From Streptomonospora salina (GTDB lineage: Bacteria > Actinomycetota > Actinomycetes > Streptosporangiales > Streptosporangiaceae): a stretch of 64,000 nucleotides of DNA. Where the stretch lies: contig NZ_JACHLY010000001.1 of NCBI RefSeq assembly GCF_014204715.1, forward strand, positions 620,001-684,000, in the 5' to 3' direction. This document shows, one piece after another, positions 53,804 to 62,584 of the stretch. Each line of letters starts with the position of its first letter. The first letter of the stretch is position 1. Both the position numbers and the translations under genes were made by a program. The notes below the pieces were generated by a model. It was not told the DNA's origin. It was given only the letters and a program-made list of their open reading frames with translations, and did not search any database.

Positions 53804-54550
53804 ATGGCGAAGAAGCCCAAGGACACCAAGGCACCCGCGACCCCGGCGCAAGGCGCCTCCGACCAGGGCGGCGCGCAGAAGCCGCCCGGCAGGTTCAAGC
53901 AGTTCGCCATGGTCGTCCGGGTGGTGCACCGGCAGAGTCCGCGCACCATCCCCATCGCGGTCGGGATCTTCCTGGCGGTGCTCGCGGTCGCCGTCGCCGG
54001 CGGGAGCGTCGTCGGCGGATGGCTGTACTGGGGGCCGCTCGGTTTCGCTGTGGCGTTCCTCGCCGGATTCTTCTACTTCACCCGCGCCACGCAGCGGTTG
54101 CAGTACCAGATGCTGGAGGGTCAGCTCGGCGCGGCCACGGCGGTGCTGGACAACCTGCGCGGCGACTGGACCACCGAGCCCGGGGTCGGCGCCAACCGGC
54201 AGATGGACGTCGTCCACCGCGCGGTCGGCAAAGCCGGTGTGGTGCTGGTGGGCGAAGGCGACCCCGGCCGGCTGAAGGGGTTGCTCGCCGCCGAGAAGAA
54301 GAAGGTGGCGCGCGTCGCGCACAACACCCCGATCTACGACTTGCAGGTGGGCAAGGGCGAGTCGCAGGTGCCCATCTCCCAGTTGCAGCGCCGGCTGCTC
54401 AAGCTGCCGCGCAACCTGGACAAGGGCGAGGTCGCCGAGCTGCGCTACCGGCTCAAGGCGCTGCCGGCGTCGATGCAGATGCCCAAGGGCCCCATGCCCA
54501 AGGGCGCGAAAATGCCCAAGGGCCCCAAGGCCTCGGGCGGCGGGAACTGA
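53804..54550 (+). CDS. DUF4191 membrane protein
   Basis: 248 residues. A basic N-terminus, two membrane helices (~47-90) and a cytoplasmic part with ‘AVLDNLRGDW’ and ‘VLVGEGDPGRLKGLLAAEKKKVAR’ (~146-169), typical of DUF4191, which is usually encoded next to lipA in actinobacteria, as here. The C-terminus has MPKGP repeats. Function unknown. ATG 53804 has GGAAA upstream. Confidence 0.85.
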   Translation: MAKKPKDTKAPATPAQGASDQGGAQKPPGRFKQFAMVVRVVHRQSPRTIPIAVGIFLAVLAVAVAGGSVVGGWLYWGPLGFAVAFLAGFFYFTRATQRLQYQMLEGQLGAATAVLDNLRGDWTTEPGVGANRQMDVVHRAVGKAGVVLVGEGDPGRLKGLLAAEKKKVARVAHNTPIYDLQVGKGESQVPISQLQRRLLKLPRNLDKGEVAELRYRLKALPASMQMPKGPMPKGAKMPKGPKASGGGN

Positions 54551-54766
54551 GGCACCGGCGCCGGGCGTGCGGCGGGACGGCCTCCGCCGCGAACCTCGGG
54601 AGTCCTCCGCGCACCGTCCGGTGCGGGCGCCAGCACCGGTGGCGGCTCCCGCCGGAGGCCGCGGCGTGCGCCGGGCGGCGCGGGGCCGTCTCCGGCGGGC
54701 GGTGCGCGGCGGGTGCGTGAAGCGGAGCGCCTCCGGTCGATCCCTGCCGCTAGGGCCCGGCCCCGC

Positions 54767-55213
54767 TCAGAGCCGCCGGGTGACCGTTCCGGCGGCGCGG
54801 TCGTGCAGGCCGCGATGGTCGAGGTCGTAGACCACCGCCGGGATCACCAGGCACAGCAGCGCCGTGCGCACCACCATCGCGACGGGCCACGGCAGCGGGC
54901 GCTCTCCCGTGGAGGCGACGTCGGTTCCCGTGATGCGCTTGCCCAGCGTAGTGCCGAACACCGACAGCATCAGCGCGGTGTAGACGGCGAACAGCAGCAG
55001 CGTCGCGCTGGAGGCCGAAGACGTCGCCGCGGGGTCGCCGCCGGCTCCGCCGACGATCGCCGACACCACCAGCACGCACAGCAGCCAGTCGAGCACCAGC
55101 CCCACCATGCGCCTGCCGATGCCCGGGACCGATCCCGGACCGTGCTCGGGCATCCCCAGCCGGTTTCCGCGGTACTGGAACTGCGCCTCCTCGGCGCCTT
55201 CGGCATCGGACAT
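54767..55213 (-). CDS. RDD family membrane protein
   Basis: 148 residues with three membrane segments (~40-60, ~70-95, ~118-138). ‘GIGRRMVGLVLDWLLC’ at ~33 carries the Arg-Asp pattern of RDD proteins. Function unknown. ATG 55213 lies 7 nt after TACCGT (minus strand, 55226-55221) without a ribosome site, so leaderless; an in-frame GTG two codons upstream is less likely. Divergent from glnA. Confidence 0.83.
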   Translation of the reverse strand: MSDAEGAEEAQFQYRGNRLGMPEHGPGSVPGIGRRMVGLVLDWLLCVLVVSAIVGGAGGDPAATSSASSATLLLFAVYTALMLSVFGTTLGKRITGTDVASTGERPLPWPVAMVVRTALLCLVIPAVVYDLDHRGLHDRAAGTVTRRL

Positions 55214-55353
55214 GGGCACAACGGTATCGGCACCGGGAACCGGTTCCGGTCACGGGCAAGCGGCGACTTCACGTGTCCGCACGCCTTCCGCGTGTCCGGT
55301 TTCGGGGTGTCACCACAGCTCATGCACGATGGTCAGCGATAACGCCGGGCTCC

Positions 55354-55369
55354 GTAACGCGCGGGAAAC
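55354..55369 (+). promoter_or_regulatory. GlnR box upstream of glnA
   Basis: GTAAC-N6-GAAAC matches the actinobacterial GlnR a-site/b-site consensus (gTnAC-n6-GaAAc). It lies about 136 bp before the glnA start, upstream of a TAGCGT -10-like element (55402-55407), the position expected for GlnR activation under nitrogen limitation. Confidence 0.7.
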
Positions 55370-55504
55370 ATTGGAGACATGGACCGGAAATGGCCCCCTC
55401 CTAGCGTCGACGACGTAGCCGGGAGGTCGCGAGGCCGGAGCGCGACACCGCAACGAAGCGGGGCACCGCCCGCGCGACCTCTTTCACCTGCACGGAGGTA
55501 ACTC

Positions 55505-56929
55505 TTGTTCAGCAGCGCCGAAGAACTTCTGGCCTTCACCCGGGACGAGGACATCAAGTTCCTCGACTGCCGTTTCACGGACCTGTTCGGGGCCACCCAC
55601 CACTTCACCCTCCCCATCGAGCACGTCGATGCGGGCACCTTCGACGAAGGCCTGATGTTCGACGGTTCGTCGATCCGCGGGTTCCAGGCCATCCACGAGT
55701 CCGACATGCTGCTGCTGCCGGACCTGTCGACCGCGGTCGTCGACGCGTTCCGCGAGCACCGCACGCTGAACCTCACGTTCTTCGTGCACGATCCGTTCAC
55801 GCGCGAGTCCTACAGCCGCGACCCCCGCAACGTCGCCCGCAAGGCCGAGGCCTACCTCAACAGCACCGGCATCGCCGACACCGTCTTCGTCGGCCCCGAA
55901 GCCGAGTTCTACATCTTCGACGACGTGCGCTTCCAGACGCAGGAGAACGCGTCGTTCTACTACATCGACTCGATCGAGGGCGCCTGGAACACCGGCACCC
56001 AGAACGGCCAGTCCAACCTGGGCTACCGGCCGCGCTACAAGGGCGGGTACTTCCCCGTCGAGCCGGTCGACCACTACAGCGACCTGCGCTCGACGATGGT
56101 GCGCAACCTGATCGACGCCGGCATGGACATCGAGATCCAGCACCACGAGGTGGGCACCGCCGGCCAGGCCGAGATCGACTTCAAGTTCGACGAGCTGCTC
56201 AAGTCGGCCGACGACGTCCAGCTCTACAAGTACATCGTCAAGAACACGGCCTACTCCAAGGGCAAGTCGGTCACCTTCATGCCCAAGCCGGTCTTCGGCG
56301 ACAACGGCTCGGGCATGCACTGCCACATGAGCCTGTGGAAGGACGGCGCCCCGCTGTTCTTCGACGAGTCGGGCTACGCCCAGCTGTCGGACATGGCGCG
56401 GCACTACATCGGCGGCCTGCTCAAGCACGCTCCGGCGCTGCTGGCCTTCACCAACCCGACGATCAACTCCTACCACCGCCTTGTGCCGGGCTACGAGGCC
56501 CCGATCAACCTGGTCTACTCCCAGCGCAACCGCTCGGCCTGCATCCGGATCCCGCTGACCGGGTCCAACCCGAAGGCCAAGCGCCTGGAGTTCCGTGTTC
56601 CCGACCCGTCGGCCAACCCCTACCTCGCCTTCTCGGCGATGCTCATGGCCGGCATCGACGGCATCAAGAACAAGATCGAACCGCCGGAGCCGGTCGACAA
56701 GGACCTCTACGAGCTGCCCCCGGCCGAGGCCGGCGCCATCGAGAAGGTCCCCGCCTCGCTGGACGCCGCCCTGGACGCCCTTGAGGCCGACCACGAGTTC
56801 CTGGTCGAGGGCGGGGTCTTCACCGAGGACCTGATCGAGACCTACATCGACTACAAGCGCACCGAGGAGATCGACTCCCTGCGCCTGCGTCCGCACCCGC
56901 GCGAGTTCGAGCTGTACTACGACATCTGA
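55505..56929 (+). CDS. glnA: Glutamine synthetase type I
   Basis: 474 residues. ‘FDGSSIRGF’ (~50-58), ‘[10 protein letters not shown]’ (~128-137), ‘[10 protein letters not shown]’ (~266) and ‘NRSACIRIP’ (~343) are GS-I hallmarks. Near residue 405 the DLYELPP sequence contains the Tyr adenylylated by GlnE in this class, and glnE is encoded 2.6 kb downstream. TTG 55505 has GGAGGT upstream. A GlnR box lies upstream and a strong terminator downstream. Confidence 0.96.
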
Positions 56930-56975
56930 TGTCGCTGCAGGTCAGGACATATCGGCGCTGATCCGGGCCGTGCAT

Positions 56976-57021
56976 AGGCCGCCGCCCGTACCTGGCAGGG
57001 GGTACGGGCGGCGGCCTTTCG
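56976..57021 (+). terminator. Intrinsic terminator of glnA
   Basis: GGCCGCCGCCCGTACC pairs across a short loop with GGTACGGGCGGCGGCC and is followed by TTTC. A strong hairpin. Confidence 0.8.
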
Positions 57022-57120
57022 CATGCCCGGAGCGGGCTCGGCCGACGGCCGTTCCCGCGGGACCGCCGAGATGTGATGCCGGTGTGTCAGGCTCGCGGCG
57101 ACTTACCACTGCAGCCCGTA

Positions 57121-57162
57121 TTGACTTCCGCTCCCCGGCCTAAAAGCCGGGGACTCCTACGG
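57121..57162 (-). mobile_element. IS200/IS605-type right end
   Basis: On the minus strand GAGTCCCCGGC-TTTTAG-GCCGGGGAGC forms the typical right-end hairpin (arms 57146-57153 and 57132-57139) and ends with GTCAA at 57121. In TnpB-bearing elements this end also overlaps the scaffold of the guide RNA. It is preserved although tnpB is truncated. Confidence 0.55.
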
Positions 57163-57635
57163 CGGCCGGGTGACGGCACCGACGGCAGGGAGCGCGACCA
57201 CCGCACCCGCACGTCCCCGACCTTCGGCAGGGACAGGTCCCCGCCCGGGGTGACCTTCCATCGGGCGTTGGCGGTGAACCGCACGGCCTGCCGGTTGTCC
57301 TTGCGGGACTTGAACCGCGGTGCGCCCATGCGCGGCCGCTTTCCCTTCAGCGCGTCGACGAAGGTGCGGTAGGCGGTGTCCAGGTCCCGCAGCGCCTGTT
57401 GCAGGACCACGGCCGACACCTCGCCCGACCATGCGCGCTCGTCGGTCTTCTCCGCTTCGGTGATCAGCGTCGTGGACAGGTCCCCGGTCGTCGGGAACGC
57501 GTCGCCGCCGGTGCGGGCGGTCTCCCGCGCGCGCAACGCGTCGTTGTCGACCACGCGGGCGCACCCGAACGCCCGCGCCAACGCTTGGCGCTGGGGGCCG
57601 TTCGGGTACAGGCGGAAGGAGCACCGGAGCTGCAT
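57163..57635 (-). pseudogene. Truncated TnpB (IS200/IS605 OrfB) remnant
   Basis: The frame starting MQLRCSFRLYPNGPQRQAL encodes the N-terminal helix-turn-helix and first part of TnpB up to ‘GDVRVRWSRSLPS’ (~155 residues). The rest, including the RuvC nuclease core and zinc ribbon, is missing and the frame runs straight into the right-end hairpin, indicating an internal deletion. No function as a nuclease is expected. The full ORF reads to 57087. Confidence 0.7.
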
Positions 57636-57747
57636 GCGAACCCACGTACTACCGGGGTTCACGGGCACGCACGCAAACGCGGAACCGGCAGACACCGTGT
57701 TTCCGTTCCGCACGCGCACTCGGCTTCCTCACCGAGTACAGCCACGA

Positions 57748-57972
57748 GATCGGTGATGGGGGGTTTGCCGAGGCGCCTGCGGACCGAGGAGGCACCCTCC
57801 GGGAACCACAAGCATCGCCGCCACCCCAGAGGCTGCGGCAATGGGGCGCAGCTCGCCCCGCGAGCGAGCCGGCTTGCCGCCGAGCGCACGCCGCACACGG
57901 CAGCGGGACCCGCCGCCCCCCAGGGCTGATTCGCAGTCGTTCGGTGCGAGCGATGAGGCAGGTCACGGCATC
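57748..57972 (-). repeat. Inverted cassette, copy A
   Basis: A ~225-bp segment nearly identical, in inverse orientation, to 58500-58721. The outer ~170 bp are almost identical; the inner ~50 bp are diverged but alignable. The conserved stem CCTCTGGG/CCCGGAGG encloses a loop in which 14 nt (57808-57821) differ completely from copy B. No protein recognised; it may encode a structured RNA. Confidence 0.6.
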
Positions 57973-58120
57973 ATGACGGTTGCGGCGATCGACCGACACA
58001 CAACAACGGAGCTCCGGAGCGCGGGGACACGACTCTCCGGATCCACAAGAACACCGCTGCCCCACCACTCTGCCGCGCCCCGGCCCCGCCGTCCGCGGCC
58101 TCGCCCGACACCGCACCGCC

Positions 58121-58509
58121 GTGGACGATCCGCGCGACGGACGCGGCCTCCGCCGTGGGATCGGCACCGTCCCGGCCACCGCGCTGTGCGCGCTGCTGTG
58201 CGGGTCCCGCTCGCTGCGCGCGATCGGCCGGTGGGCCGCCGACACGCCCCGGCACACCCGCACCCGCCTGGGCCGCCGCATCGCCGGTCCTGAACCGGCC
58301 GTGCGCATCGCGCCCGGCACCTCCACGATCCGGCGGGTCCGGCAAAGCCCCCACGGGCCACGGGCCACGGGCCGACCGACCTCGCCGCGTCGCGCGGCCC
58401 GGCCGCGCTGCCGCTCCCCGCGCCGGGACGCCCGACCGCCCCCGATGCGATCCGGCGGGTCACCTACGCGTACCTCATCCGCCCGCTCGATCTCATCGGG
58501 ATCGCCTGA
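58121..58509 (+). pseudogene. ISAs1-type transposase remnant
   Basis: 58121-58339 encodes ‘VDDPRDGRGLRRG...’ followed by ‘LLCGSRSLRAIGRWAADTP’ and ‘STIRRV’, matching the N-terminal domain of ISAs1-family DDE transposases. The frame then shifts: a second fragment (about 58375-58509, ending RRVTYAYLIRPLDLIGIA) is unrelated to anything I can name. The DDE catalytic core is absent. It lies exactly between the two inverted cassettes. Confidence 0.55.
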
Positions 58510-58721
58510 CCGGCGAGAACCCGCACGATCACCGACGTTGCATCACCCCTGGGCGGCGGCGGGTCCCGCTGCCGTGTGCGGCGTGCGCTCGGCGGCAAGC
58601 CGGCTCGCTCGCGGGGCGAGCTGCGCCCCATTGCCGCAACCTCTGGGGTGACCGGTTCCATGCGGTTCCCGGAGGGTGCCTCCTCGGTCCGCAGGCGCCT
58701 CGCAAACCCCCATCACCGATC
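58500..58721 (+). repeat. Inverted cassette, copy B
   Basis: Inverted copy of 57748-57972. The stem CCTCTGGG (58640-58647)/CCCGGAGG (58668-58675) is the same, but the loop segment 58651-58663 (13 nt, ACCGGTTCCATGC) differs from copy A. The outer edges share GATCGGTGATGG and the inner edges GATCGCCTGACC/GATGCCGTGACC. Confidence 0.6.
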
Positions 58722-59088
58722 GAGGGGGGTCTCCGACGTTCGCCCCGCTCGTGGAAGGGACCATGCCCGCGGTGCGCACCGGCTCCGAGGCCGATCCGGC
58801 GGTGTTCGACGGCGCGGGCGAGCACGTGCACCCGCCGGTGCACCTCCCGCCCGACGTCGCGGTCTCCACGCCGGCCGCCAGCCGCACGAGCGTGTCCCCG
58901 CGCCGGTCGCGCCGGGAGTCCTGCGGGCGTGTCCGGCACTGTCGGCGCGCCGCGCGGCTCCGGCCGGGCTCCTCCTCCGCCGGTCCGCCCGGCGGCGGAT
59001 CGGCTTTTCTTGTTCCGCTACGCGGGGGTCGGCTCCATCTCCGCCGCGAACGGCGGAGCACTGCCGACGATCCCGGTAGCGTCGGGGC
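58722..59088. other. Gene-poor region before the small membrane protein
   Basis: About 365 bp. Frames are open but no recognisable product or start signal. A TAGCGT hexamer (59077-59082) lies 6 nt before the next ATG. Possibly decayed accessory sequence. Confidence 0.35.
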
Positions 59089-59424
59089 ATGGACTTCATC
59101 AACGCGGTACTCGTCTTCCTGCACCTGCTGGGCATGGCCGGCATCATCGCGGGATTCATGATCCAGCTCATCACCGGGCACCGTGCCGGGCCGAAGAGCA
59201 TCCTGCACAGTACGCTGCTGCAGCTGGTGACCGGGCTGCTGCTCACGGGACTGGCCGAGATGGGCGACGACCCCGTCAACCACGCGAAGATCGCCGTCAA
59301 GCTGGTCGTCGCGCTGGCCGTGGTCGTCGTGGGGATCCTCAACGTGCGCAAGCCCGACAACCGCCTGGCCGGCGCGGCCGGCGCACTCGCCGTCGTCAAC
59401 GTGGCCGTGGCCGTGTTCGTCTAG
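59089..59424 (+). CDS. Small conserved membrane protein
   Basis: 111 residues with four membrane segments (~4-27, ~42-58, ~66-85, ~92-111) and few charged residues. It resembles short DUF-type membrane proteins common in actinobacteria; function unknown. ATG 59089 lies 6 nt after TAGCGT with no ribosome site, so leaderless. A strong hairpin follows. Confidence 0.75.
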   Translation: MDFINAVLVFLHLLGMAGIIAGFMIQLITGHRAGPKSILHSTLLQLVTGLLLTGLAEMGDDPVNHAKIAVKLVVALAVVVVGILNVRKPDNRLAGAAGALAVVNVAVAVFV

Positions 59425-59461
59425 GCACTCCCCCGCTTCCGGGCGCCCCTCGCCCCGCGGA

Positions 59462-59492
59462 GAGCACCGCCGCGCTCGGCGCGGCGGTGCTC
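59462..59492. terminator. Hairpin between converging genes
   Basis: GAGCACCGCCGCGC-TCG-GCGCGGCGGTGCTC, 14-bp perfect arms, between the small membrane protein and glnE 3' ends, followed on the plus strand by AGTTCGTT. Probably a bidirectional terminator. Confidence 0.7.
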
Positions 59493-59533
59493 AGTTCGTT
59501 CCGGCCGGTCCCCGGCGCTTCGGAGGGCGCGGC

Positions 59534-62500
59534 TCAGTCGTCGTAGAAGACCCGCTCCATCACCGTGCGGGCCCGGCGCGTGACCTGACGGTAGTCCTGG
59601 ACCATGCGGCCGACCGCGCCCTCGTCCTCGTCGTCGTCGCGGTAGCCCAGAGCCCCGGCCAGGATCGCCTGGTCGCGCAGCGACTTGGGGATGGAGTCGG
59701 ACGGCTTCCCGCGCACCAGCATGACCGCGCCCCGCACGCGGGCGGCCAGCCGCCAGGAGGTCTCCAGCGTCGCGCCGTCCTCGGGGTCCAGCAGCCCGGC
59801 CCCGACCGCCGCGTGCAGCGCCTCGATCGTGCCCGTGGTGCGCAGCCCGGGTACCTCGTGGCCGTGGCGCAGCTGCAGCAGCTGAGCGACCCACTCCACG
59901 TCGGACAGTCCGCCCCGGCCGAGCTTGGTGTGCGTGGCGGGGTCGGCGCCGCGGGGCAGCCGCTCGGCCTCCATCCGGGCCTTGAGCTTGCGGATCTCGC
60001 GCACCTGGGAGTCGCCGACGCCGCCCTCGGGGTAGCGCAGCGGGTCGACCAGCTCGATGAAGCGCGCGCCCAGGTCCATGTCGCCGGCGATCGGCGCGGC
60101 GCGCAGCAGCGCCTGGCTCTCCCAGGTCGACGACCAGCGCCGGTAGTAAGCGGCATAGGAGTCCAGCGTGCGCACCATCGCTCCGCTGCGGCCCTCGGGG
60201 CGCAGGTCGGCGTCCAGGAGCAGCGGCGGATCGTACGCGGGCATCTCCAGCAGCCGCCGCAGCTCGCGCACGATCGCGATCGCGGACTCGGTCGCCGCCG
60301 CCGTGGCGGCGCCCGGCAGCGGCTCGTGGACGAACATCACGTCGGCGTCGCTGGCGTAGCTCAGTTCCCCGCCGCCGAAGCGGCCCATGGCCACGACGCA
60401 CAGCCGCGTCTGCGGCTCCTCGCCGCGCTGGTCGGCGACGCGGGCGCGCGCGGTGCGCAGCGCCGCCTCGACGGTCACCGCGGTGATCGCGGTGAGCGCG
60501 TCGCCCACCGACTCCACCGGCGAGACCTCCAGCAGGTCGGCCAGGGCGGTGCGCAGCAGTTCGCGGCGGCGCAGGGCGCGCACGGCGGCGACGGCGTTCT
60601 CGGCGGTGCCGTGGCGCCGCAGCGCCGCGTCGGCCTCGGCCTCCAGCGCCCGCGTGGACCGCTGCACGAGTTCGGCGTCGTCGGCCAGCACGCCGACCGC
60701 TTCGGGAGCGCGCAGCAGCAGCTCGGTTACGTAGCGGCTGGTGCCCAGCACCCAGGCCATGCGTTCGGCGACCCGGATATCGTCACGCAGCAGGCGCAGG
60801 TACCACGGTGTGCCGCCCAGTGCCTCGCTGACCTGGCGGAAGGCCAGCAACCCGGTGTCGGGGTCGGGCGCGTCGGCGAACCAGCCCAGCATGACCGGCA
60901 TCAGGGTGCGCTGTATGGCCGCCCGGCGCGAGACGCCGGAGGTCAGGGTGTCCAGGTGGCGCAGCGCGCCCGCCGGGTCGGCGAATCCGAGTGCGCTGAG
61001 CCGTTCGCCCGCCTGCTCCGGCGTCAGGCGGGCTTCGCCCTCGGGCAGGCGCGCCACCGCGTGCAGCAGGGGGCGGTAGAACAGCTTCTCGTGCAGTCGC
61101 CGCACGTCGCCGGCGACCCGGCGCCAAGCCGCCATGAACTCGGTGACCGGGTTGGCGGCATACCCCAGCGCCCGGCCCAGCCGGCGCAGCTGCTCGGATC
61201 CGTCGGGGCTGTCGGGATCGGGCAGCAGGTGGGTGCGGCGCAGCCGGCTCAGCTGCAGCAGGTGCTCCACGCGGCGCAGGAACCGGTAGGCGTCGGCGAG
61301 TCCGGCGGCGTCGTCGCGGCCCACGTAGCCCTTCTGCGACAGCGCCTCCAGCGCGGCGAGGGTGTTGCCCGACCGCAGCGCGGGGTCGGCGCGCCCGTGC
61401 ACGAGCTGCAGCAGCTGCACGGAGAACTCGATGTCGCGCAGCCCGCCGCGGCTGAGCTTGATTTCGCGCTCGGACTCGGCGGGCGGGATGTGGGCGACGA
61501 CGCGGCGGCGCATGGACTGCACGTCGTCGACGAAGTTGTCGCGGCCCGCGGCCCGCCAGACCATCGGTTCGATCTCGGCGGCGTAGGCGGCGCCGAGATC
61601 GGGGTCGCCGGCGATGGGGCGGGCCTTGAGCAGCGCCTGGAACTCCCAGGTCTTGGCCCAGCGCTGGTAGTAGGCGACGTGGCCCGACAGCCCCCGTACC
61701 AGCGGGCCGTTCTTGCCTTCGGGGCGCAGGGCGGCGTCGACCTGCCAGAGCGTGCCCTCGCTGGCGGTCTCGGAGGGCAGGCGCATCATCTCCGCGGCCA
61801 GCCGCGAGGCGGCGCGCATGGCCGCCTGCTCGTCCTCGACTCCGTCGGCGGGTTCGGCGACGAAGACGACGTCGACGTCGCTGACGTAGTTCAGCTCGCG
61901 CCCGCCGCATTTGCCCATTCCGATGACGGCCAAGCGGCACAGCGCGGCCTGTTCGGGATCGTCGGCCCGCGCGATCGCCAGCGCGGCCTCCAGCACGGAG
62001 GCGGCCAGGTCGGCCAGTTCGGCGCCGACGGTCTCCAGGTCGGCGGCGCCGGTCAGGTCGCGCCCGGCCAGGCGCAGCACGCGCCGGTGGTAGGCGACTC
62101 GCAGCGCGTGGGCGCGGACATCGGGGCCGTCGGTGTTGCGCGCCGCCACGGGGGCGGCGGGGTCGGAGTTGGGATCGGCGCCGACGATGTGCAGCATGCC
62201 GGCCCGCAGCTCGCTGGGCCCGGGGGCGCGGGCGGCGTCGGCGCCGCGCAGTTCCCGCCAGTCGCCGGGGTGACGCACCAGGTGGTCGGTGAGGGCGGTG
62301 CTGGCGCCCAGCACCTTGACCAGCCGGGCACGCAGGTCGGGGTCGGCGGTCAGCGCCTCCAGCAGGTCGCCGGGTTCGGCGCAGCAGTCCAGCAGGCGAC
62401 TCAGGCCCAGCAGGGCCTGGTCGGCGTCGGGCGCGGCGCCGAGTTCGTCGACGACGCCGGCGTGGTGCCCGGGGGCGAGGCCGCAGTCCTGCATCAGCCT

Positions 62501-62584
62501 CGCTGCGCGCGCGCCGTCGCCGAATCCGCGCCGCGCCAATGCCCCCGCCGTCAGTGTGAATGTCTCCCGAGCCACGTTGATCAC
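59534..62584 (-). CDS. glnE: Glutamine synthetase adenylyltransferase/deadenylase
   Basis: 1016 residues, full length for the family. Two nucleotidyltransferase modules are visible: ‘VIGMGKCGGRELNYVSDVDVVFV’ (~215-237, deadenylase half) and ‘VVAMGRFGGGELSYASDADVMFV’ (~722-744, adenylylase half), each with the D-x-D metal pair. It controls GlnA by adenylylating its Tyr. GTG 62584 has a poor ribosome site. Its likely promoter (TTGAAC, 16 bp, TAGTCT on the minus strand, 62639-62612) overlaps the SMR operator. Confidence 0.94.
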   Translation of the reverse strand: MINVARETFTLTAGALARRGFGDGARAARLMQDCGLAPGHHAGVVDELGAAPDADQALLGLSRLLDCCAEPGDLLEALTADPDLRARLVKVLGASTALTDHLVRHPGDWRELRGADAARAPGPSELRAGMLHIVGADPNSDPAAPVAARNTDGPDVRAHALRVAYHRRVLRLAGRDLTGAADLETVGAELADLAASVLEAALAIARADDPEQAALCRLAVIGMGKCGGRELNYVSDVDVVFVAEPADGVEDEQAAMRAASRLAAEMMRLPSETASEGTLWQVDAALRPEGKNGPLVRGLSGHVAYYQRWAKTWEFQALLKARPIAGDPDLGAAYAAEIEPMVWRAAGRDNFVDDVQSMRRRVVAHIPPAESEREIKLSRGGLRDIEFSVQLLQLVHGRADPALRSGNTLAALEALSQKGYVGRDDAAGLADAYRFLRRVEHLLQLSRLRRTHLLPDPDSPDGSEQLRRLGRALGYAANPVTEFMAAWRRVAGDVRRLHEKLFYRPLLHAVARLPEGEARLTPEQAGERLSALGFADPAGALRHLDTLTSGVSRRAAIQRTLMPVMLGWFADAPDPDTGLLAFRQVSEALGGTPWYLRLLRDDIRVAERMAWVLGTSRYVTELLLRAPEAVGVLADDAELVQRSTRALEAEADAALRRHGTAENAVAAVRALRRRELLRTALADLLEVSPVESVGDALTAITAVTVEAALRTARARVADQRGEEPQTRLCVVAMGRFGGGELSYASDADVMFVHEPLPGAATAAATESAIAIVRELRRLLEMPAYDPPLLLDADLRPEGRSGAMVRTLDSYAAYYRRWSSTWESQALLRAAPIAGDMDLGARFIELVDPLRYPEGGVGDSQVREIRKLKARMEAERLPRGADPATHTKLGRGGLSDVEWVAQLLQLRHGHEVPGLRTTGTIEALHAAVGAGLLDPEDGATLETSWRLAARVRGAVMLVRGKPSDSIPKSLRDQAILAGALGYRDDDEDEGAVGRMVQDYRQVTRRARTVMERVFYDD

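Follow-up and report, generated by a model that had tools for sequence, protein, structure and literature searches.

Inverted hairpin-bearing cassettes between glnA and glnE of Streptomonospora salina as the probable arms of a MITE with IS982-type ends

The two inverted cassettes between glnA and glnE in the window (the whole 64,000-nucleotide stretch of Streptomonospora salina DNA that was analyzed) very probably belong together as the long inverted arms of a single MITE, with IS982-type ends, an ISAs1-family passenger, and hairpin units placed tail to tail. Membership among MITEs is suggested by the ends, the flanking repeat, the size, and the dispersal of the copies, as read from the nucleotide sequence. 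The element is short and has no transposase of its own, measuring 341 bp in the window once the ISAs1 insertion is subtracted and ∼285 bp at full length in Streptomonospora sp. PA3 (e.g., C2:132726-133011; 24 isolated pairs were aligned, some of them deleted). Its ends are common to an autonomous, IS982-like element in the S. salina genome, which is not the case within PA3. The repeats taken as target-site duplications are CGAG at the window copy and, in the three PA3 copies with both ends recognized, TA on each side, and several dispersed copies were found. A sequence-only reading of the region had offered, as its alternative to a structured RNA, unusual terminal repeats or a small non-autonomous element, and this alternative is supported by the IS982-like ends, the 4-bp flanking repeat, and the dispersed copies.

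Layout of the element in the window

The inverted-repeat search and the gene matches bore out the earlier description of two cassettes in opposite orientation, bracketed together with a broken transposase by glnA (55505-56929, plus strand) and glnE (59534-62584, minus strand). In ungapped comparison, the inverted arms were 92% identical between 57760-57810 and 58661-58711 and 85% identical between 57822-57972 and 58500-58650. When gaps were allowed, 57748-57930 and 58542-58721 were 93% identical over 183 columns, in agreement with the near-identity that had been claimed for ∼170 bp. The length of ∼225 bp given for each cassette was too long, because the inner ∼42 bp (57931-57972 and 58500-58541) are ISAs1-family ends; similarity specific to the cassettes stops near 57920 and 58552, and the sequence inward of these points is of the ISAs1 family.

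Table 1. Features of the element and its surroundings, in window coordinates (G000 is the S. salina genome)
Feature	Position	Strand	Remarks
Whole non-autonomous element (probable MITE with long arms)	57749..58720	.	972 bp including central insertion; IS982-like ends and CGAG on both sides
Left 4-bp flanking repeat CGAG	57745..57748	.	Likely target-site duplication
Right 4-bp flanking repeat CGAG	58721..58724	.	Read in window sequence
Left terminal inverted repeat ATCGGTGATGGGGGGTTTG	57749..57767	+	Matches IS982-like end at G000:C1:306971 and C2:273885 except for one extra G in run
Right terminal inverted repeat ATCGGTGATGGGGGTTTG	58703..58720	- (minus-strand reading)	Identical to the same IS982-like end
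104-nt repeat unit, copy A	57790..57894	+	Family profile (L097:4291-4395)
104-nt repeat unit, copy B	58578..58681	-	Family profile (L097:5079-5182)
Core hairpin, copy A, GCGGCAATGGG..GCTTGCCGCC	57835..57881	+	Pattern match G000:C1:677835-677881
Core hairpin, copy B	58591..58637	-	Pattern match G000:C1:678591-678637
Loop of the sequence-only reading, copy A: variable stretch separating head from core	57808..57821	+	
Loop of the sequence-only reading, copy B	58651..58663	-	
Internally deleted ISAs1-family insertion sequence, passenger mid-element	57921..58551	+	631 bp; ends CAGGGCTGATT..ATCACCCCTG as in longer copy L018

The piece between the arms, which had been called a dead transposase, is indeed an ISAs1-family remnant, and no clear flanking repeat remains around it in the window. 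A longer ISAs1-family copy (L018) stands elsewhere in the genome without cassettes, with a 9-bp flanking repeat found by reading (GAGTCTCCC) and an open 349-aa frame that matches the ISAs1 family (NF033564) at 161 bits against a cut-off of 70. The possibility that the cassettes are the terminal repeats of ISAs1 was therefore rejected, since ISAs1 has ends of its own and stands alone in L018; the insertion sequence is the same as the piece between the window cassettes but is a passenger there. The remnant is found at the same point of a cassette pair at two more loci in this genome, at C1:343 kb (both ends) and at C2:410 kb (one end), and one outer arm is truncated in each of these composites.

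A truncated IS200/IS605-type TnpB gene adjoins the element on its left (57087-57719, minus strand; NF038281, 76 bits against a cut-off of 425) and has a hairpin-like end at ∼57134-57155.

Ends and candidate parent transposons

The complete arms in the S. salina genome start with ATCGGTGATGGGGGTTTG. The string RTCGGTGATGGGGG occurs nine times in this genome and was absent from the four congeners other than PA3. Six of the nine places are at units, two are the ends of complete IS982-like elements, and one is a lone end at C1:3309128, where the adjoining stretch is 87% identical to the left flank of the 343-kb copy. The likeness to the IS982-like end extends, by eye, beyond the terminal repeat (CCTGCGGAC). 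An IS982-type end was found at 6 of 23 units, with a seventh that is degenerate; copies other than that in the window have one recognizable end or none, and two of the three composites with ISAs1 retain one end only.

Four CRISPR repeats, presumably type I-E-like, lie at a spacing of 61 to 62 nt 3 kb from one composite copy (L078:691-900; G000:C1:339690-339900). Lone CRISPR repeats (L078:3929 and L284), each followed by nearly the same 35 nt, lie at 342.9 kb and 3309.2 kb, beside the IS982-type end.

The IS982-like transposase is an open frame of 306 aa present in two identical copies in the S. salina genome. Its sole NCBIfam match is to IS982 (NF033520; E value, 9.7e-34), at 117 bits and hence below the curated cut-off of 130, and its Pfam match to DDE_Tnp_1 (32.5 bits) is above the cut-off. 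The elements end in GATCGGTGATGGGGGTTTG and GATCGTTGATGGGAGTTTG. Twelve IS982-like loci from five genomes were examined: CTAG flanks both sides in all nine copies with both ends in view (three genomes), and the remaining three loci, with one end each, have CTAG twice and CTCG once. PA3 has four IS982-like copies, one of which (G005:C19:315183-316082; L303) lies, by eye, at the stop codon of a gene whose end resembles that of glnE in the window, beside a copy of the MITE.

The ends of the PA3 element are of another type, reading TA followed by GGYCGTGTTTAAGAACGGC and TA followed by CGTCCTGTTTAAGAAGCCGG. Exact ends of this type number 30 in PA3 and 5 in another congener, G001. The end pattern occurs 11 times in the S. 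salina genome, ten of these as five pairs spanning exactly 1038 bp, and the 1038-bp element belongs to the IS5 family (NF033580, 250 versus 110 bits), its transposase being an open frame of 302 aa found in five near-identical copies plus one more at 83%. The PA3 ends are the same as the ends of this element except for one or two letters, and in PA3 the IS5-family transposase had a single match, which was partial. An IS630-type mover in PA3 was rejected, there being no DDE_3 match. Insertion at stop codons as a rule was also dropped, as only 2 of the 21 PA3 ends with a recognized TA coincide with a stop codon according to our own gene calls; 60 further ends were without a recognized TA end. In G003, a congener without the core pattern described below, contig C1 has 36 matches to the IS5-family transposase (halves counted apart) at ∼43 to 64% identity, and many of these matches fall in two frames.

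G015 (the MAG DX1.bin85, from another genus) has a third type of outer segment, TGACGCTTCTATGYCGRYGG, which was found 16 times at two or fewer mismatches, compared with once for the control; for 10 of these, a core-arm motif lies no more than ∼80 nt away. No parent of this segment was seen in a non-exhaustive search. In G108, 10 stretches were compared, five with a pair and five with a single core, and their flanks are mutually unlike. IS982-type ends were also observed shortly upstream of a core in these two other genera, as CTAG followed by ATCGGTGATG in G108 (L377, a single core) and as TAGGTCGGTGAGGG in G015 (L386).

Several points count against the MITE reading: the IS982 match below the cut-off; the IS982-type end at no more than 6 of 23 units in S. 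salina; the single end left in two of the three composites with ISAs1; the flanking repeat in the window, which is only 4 bp long and is not CTAG; the situation in PA3, the genome with most copies, which has IS5-type ends but only one partial match to an IS5-family parent; and the third segment in G015, for which the non-exhaustive search found no parent.

The hairpin unit and its distribution

The cassettes are not a private pair: a genome-wide search of the kind that the sequence-only reading had proposed found many dispersed copies in S. salina and its relatives. When 40 of 127 candidates were scored, cassette A matched at least 28 places in its own genome at an E value of ≤0.001, including cassettes A and B themselves, although at least two of the matches (L018 and L025) were solely to the ISAs1 end inside the query. 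The family profile settles on a 104-nt unit, of which 23 were found at an E value of <0.01 in 16 of 20 stretches of this genome. The core pattern (GCGGCRAYGGGN{18,46}GCTTGCCGCC) was found 11 times in the S. salina genome; 11, 6, 0, 0, and 231 times in five congeners, the highest count being that of PA3 (G005); and 31 times in G015. The reversed pattern, used as a control, occurred once in S. salina and not at all in the other six genomes. G003, from which the exact pattern is absent, gave one weak BLAST match.

Among 341 genomes of the family, 15 matched the core pattern. Seven (G000, G001, G002 [S. alba YIM 90003], G005, G015, G108, and G259) were taken as having true hairpins on the basis of their letters, with 19 core places in G108 and 1 in G259, and the other eight, in which the letters between the two halves are unrelated, were taken as chance. 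A wider contig scan had 19 stretches under other titles among the at least 120 stretches listed, and these were also taken as chance; 12 of them were tested with the profile, yielding one weak match (L119). No match was found in a plasmid collection, so plasmid carriage is unsupported, and no published description of the repeat family was found in the open-licence full texts searched. A protein-coding explanation was rejected because the core varies in length from 40 to 52 nt in steps other than three.

What is conserved in the unit is a hairpin, GCGGCAA..TTGCCGC, whose inner stem is short and whose tip varies. The tips in G015 (CCTGC..GCAGG, CCC..GGG) exceed those of Streptomonospora in length and variety, as judged from the pattern matches and an alignment of nine of the 19 distinct 47-mers. 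All nine are from DX1.bin85, three more from the same source were left out, and the alignment stayed outside the pair counts.

Pairing was evaluated in two alignments of cores. Among all 18 distinct 46-mers, which come from several genomes, 93.7% of 287 cells were paired, compared with 23 to 44% in slid versions, and five pairs were changed on both sides, a number that none of 500 shuffled sets reached (mean, 1.6). In the outer part of helix 3, two pairs failed in 7 and 5 of the 18. Among all 50 distinct N-free 44-mers, which are all from PA3, one pair is C-G in 29 cores and U-A in 19, and no other association among the 44-mers is as strong as that of this key pair (mutual information, 0.85; next highest, 0.30). 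Nineteen cells were changed on both sides, again a count that 0 of 500 shuffles equaled (mean, 7.9). The excess lies in the number of cells, as the number of pairs changed on both sides was 1, compared with a shuffled mean of 1.0, and one slid control (-3) was not low, with 14 cells. When the key pair was followed along a tree of 92 PA3-type units, its joint state was seen to change 15 times, compared with a mean of 31 and a minimum of 24 after shuffling. Recombination between copies, carrying both letters together, could be part of the source of the covariation. The mutual information in 50 distinct 48-mers was not clean, and these were left out of the pair counts.

An automatic consensus fold of the whole unit had little covariation (term, -0.07), we think because the tips are misaligned there. 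When single cores were folded, 8, 25, and 6 of 200 shuffles were as good for three cores from relatives; for an S. salina core that had been cut three bases off, folded once per strand, the counts were 54 and 53 of 200. Palindromes of this sort may be kept as DNA or as RNA or may be made by mutation templated on the other arm. The earlier claim of a conserved paired structure in the cassette thus holds insofar as a hairpin is conserved and covaries, but it is a different hairpin from the stem then proposed.

In PA3, 131 units were located in 1.19 Mb, in 45 clusters (≤200 nt between units), five of which consist of a single unit. Most of the multi-unit clusters (36 of 40) start with a plus-strand unit and end with a minus-strand unit. 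Among 86 pairs of neighbors, 56 are plus then minus, 34 of them spaced 50 to 63 nt; 20 are minus then plus, 15 of them spaced 16 to 19 nt and forming the junctions within arrays; and 10 point the same way and have the look of split matches.

Origin of the element and alternative explanations

In the explanation that we propose, the IS982-like transposase would act in trans on the ends that it has in common with the MITE and would place the element at CTAG-like sites. An ISAs1-family element inserted into the middle of the MITE and subsequently decayed. One arm-ISAs1-arm composite may have reached three loci on two replicons by such transposase-driven movement, as the passenger is at the same position in each. 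The contribution of the hairpin core is a guess: it might help the element spread or lower its cost, for example, by ending read-through transcription from neighboring genes. A comparable element is MITECca01 of Cardinium, an IS982-derived MITE of ∼240 bp that is reported as likely derived from its parent (PMC9769881). Both elements are short, lack a transposase, have ends like those of an IS982-family element in the same genome, and are present in many copies; the window MITE differs in its long arms, its dimer of structured units, and the occurrence of its units with other ends in relatives.

The core lies between IS982-type ends in S. salina, between IS5-type ends in PA3, and beside a third segment in G015, which suggests that MITEs that differ in their ends may have this hairpin pair as a common module. 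We regard it as possible, though rather doubtful, that the dimer is an independent module and that unrelated DDE transposons have acquired it between their ends on two or more occasions (IS982 type in S. salina, IS5 type in PA3, and perhaps a third kind in G015). If so, one structured repeat family exploits several transposases, which would suggest how REP-like hairpin families with no transposase dedicated to them can spread. MITEs are ordinary; less so is a conserved, covarying hairpin dimer whose core stays the same although the ends around it differ between species and that has 231 matches in one genome, and the exchange of ends around the conserved dimer is possibly the only unusual part. 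Were that exchange real, it would offer a way, open to testing, for hairpin repeats to multiply when they have no transposase of their own.

It is unlikely that the units instead form a REP/REPIN-type family, in which inverted dimers of short hairpins are spread by an IS200-like Y1 transposase (RAYT). The resemblance lies in inverted pairs of hairpins, the form described for REPs (PMC3733652), in unlike partners within the PA3 pairs, in arrays, and in intergenic placement, features also of REP dimers and REPINs (PMC3116915 and PMC3733652); the core is, moreover, kept amid unlike flanks in G108 and largely so in G015. Y1 matches were found in the S. salina genome (two) and in G001 (three), but not in the carriers G002, G005, and G015 or in G003 and G004, so that two of seven genomes match, and REPINs moved by a RAYT were rejected on the basis of the three carriers without a match. 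The cores are mostly 44 to 49 nt and the unit 104 nt, longer than the 20 to 40 bp given for REPs, and the outer terminal repeats match DDE-type elements. By eye, neither a GTAG nor a CGTC tag was seen at the foot of the hairpin in the alignments from S. salina and its relatives, the difference from REPINs being in the GTAG tag; CGTC is present in one PA3 end, away from the hairpin foot. CGTC-REPs are reported to have no transposase dedicated to them (PMC3733652).

A functional RNA or two-way terminator that is used by host genes and was spread by duplication is improbable, despite the covariation of the hairpin and the placement of the PA3 units. In PA3, 15 of 40 unit-bearing gaps are convergent (17 co-directional, 8 divergent), compared with 132 of 756 unit-free gaps of ≥30 bp (460 co-directional, 164 divergent; Fisher P value for convergent versus other gaps, 0.003). 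These counts are rough, as they rest on simple gene calls of our own, with 8 of the 131 units left unassigned to any gap, and a convergent bias would also be expected from selection against promoter damage. Furthermore, the exact pattern is missing in two of the six Streptomonospora genomes and in most of the 341 genomes of the family, copy number ranges from 6 to 231 among the Streptomonospora carriers, and terminal repeats are present. The whole cassette folded no better as RNA than shuffled sequences (z, 0.52 and -0.10), and a search of 54000-62000 against Rfam returned four weak matches (E values up to 1), none within the cassettes and none above the gathering threshold.

The sequence-only reading had envisaged a structured RNA in which a conserved 8-bp stem presents a variable recognition loop. 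The difference between the two loops is real, and across 47 distinct aligned units no other columns vary as much as those of the loop, with a mean non-majority share of 0.39, compared with 0.15 in the head, 0.21 in columns 34 to 64, 0.25 in the inner hairpin, and 0.04 in the core arms; the unit alignment comprised 48 chosen units. Variability of this kind, outside the core, requires no recognition role. The stem proved to be poorly kept: 74% of cells (267 of 360) are paired when the strand able to form it is read, three of the eight pairs form in only 22 of 45, 30 of 47, and 15 of 47 sequences, and one pair is A-U in 5 beside G-C in 26. A recognition RNA of this design is thus unsupported. A guide RNA whose loop names its target, for which the variability of the loop would speak, is very improbable and was rejected on account of the poorly kept stem and the lack of an Rfam match or folding excess in the cassettes; a single loop version, varying by about a letter, recurs in six units at four loci in the S. 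salina genome.
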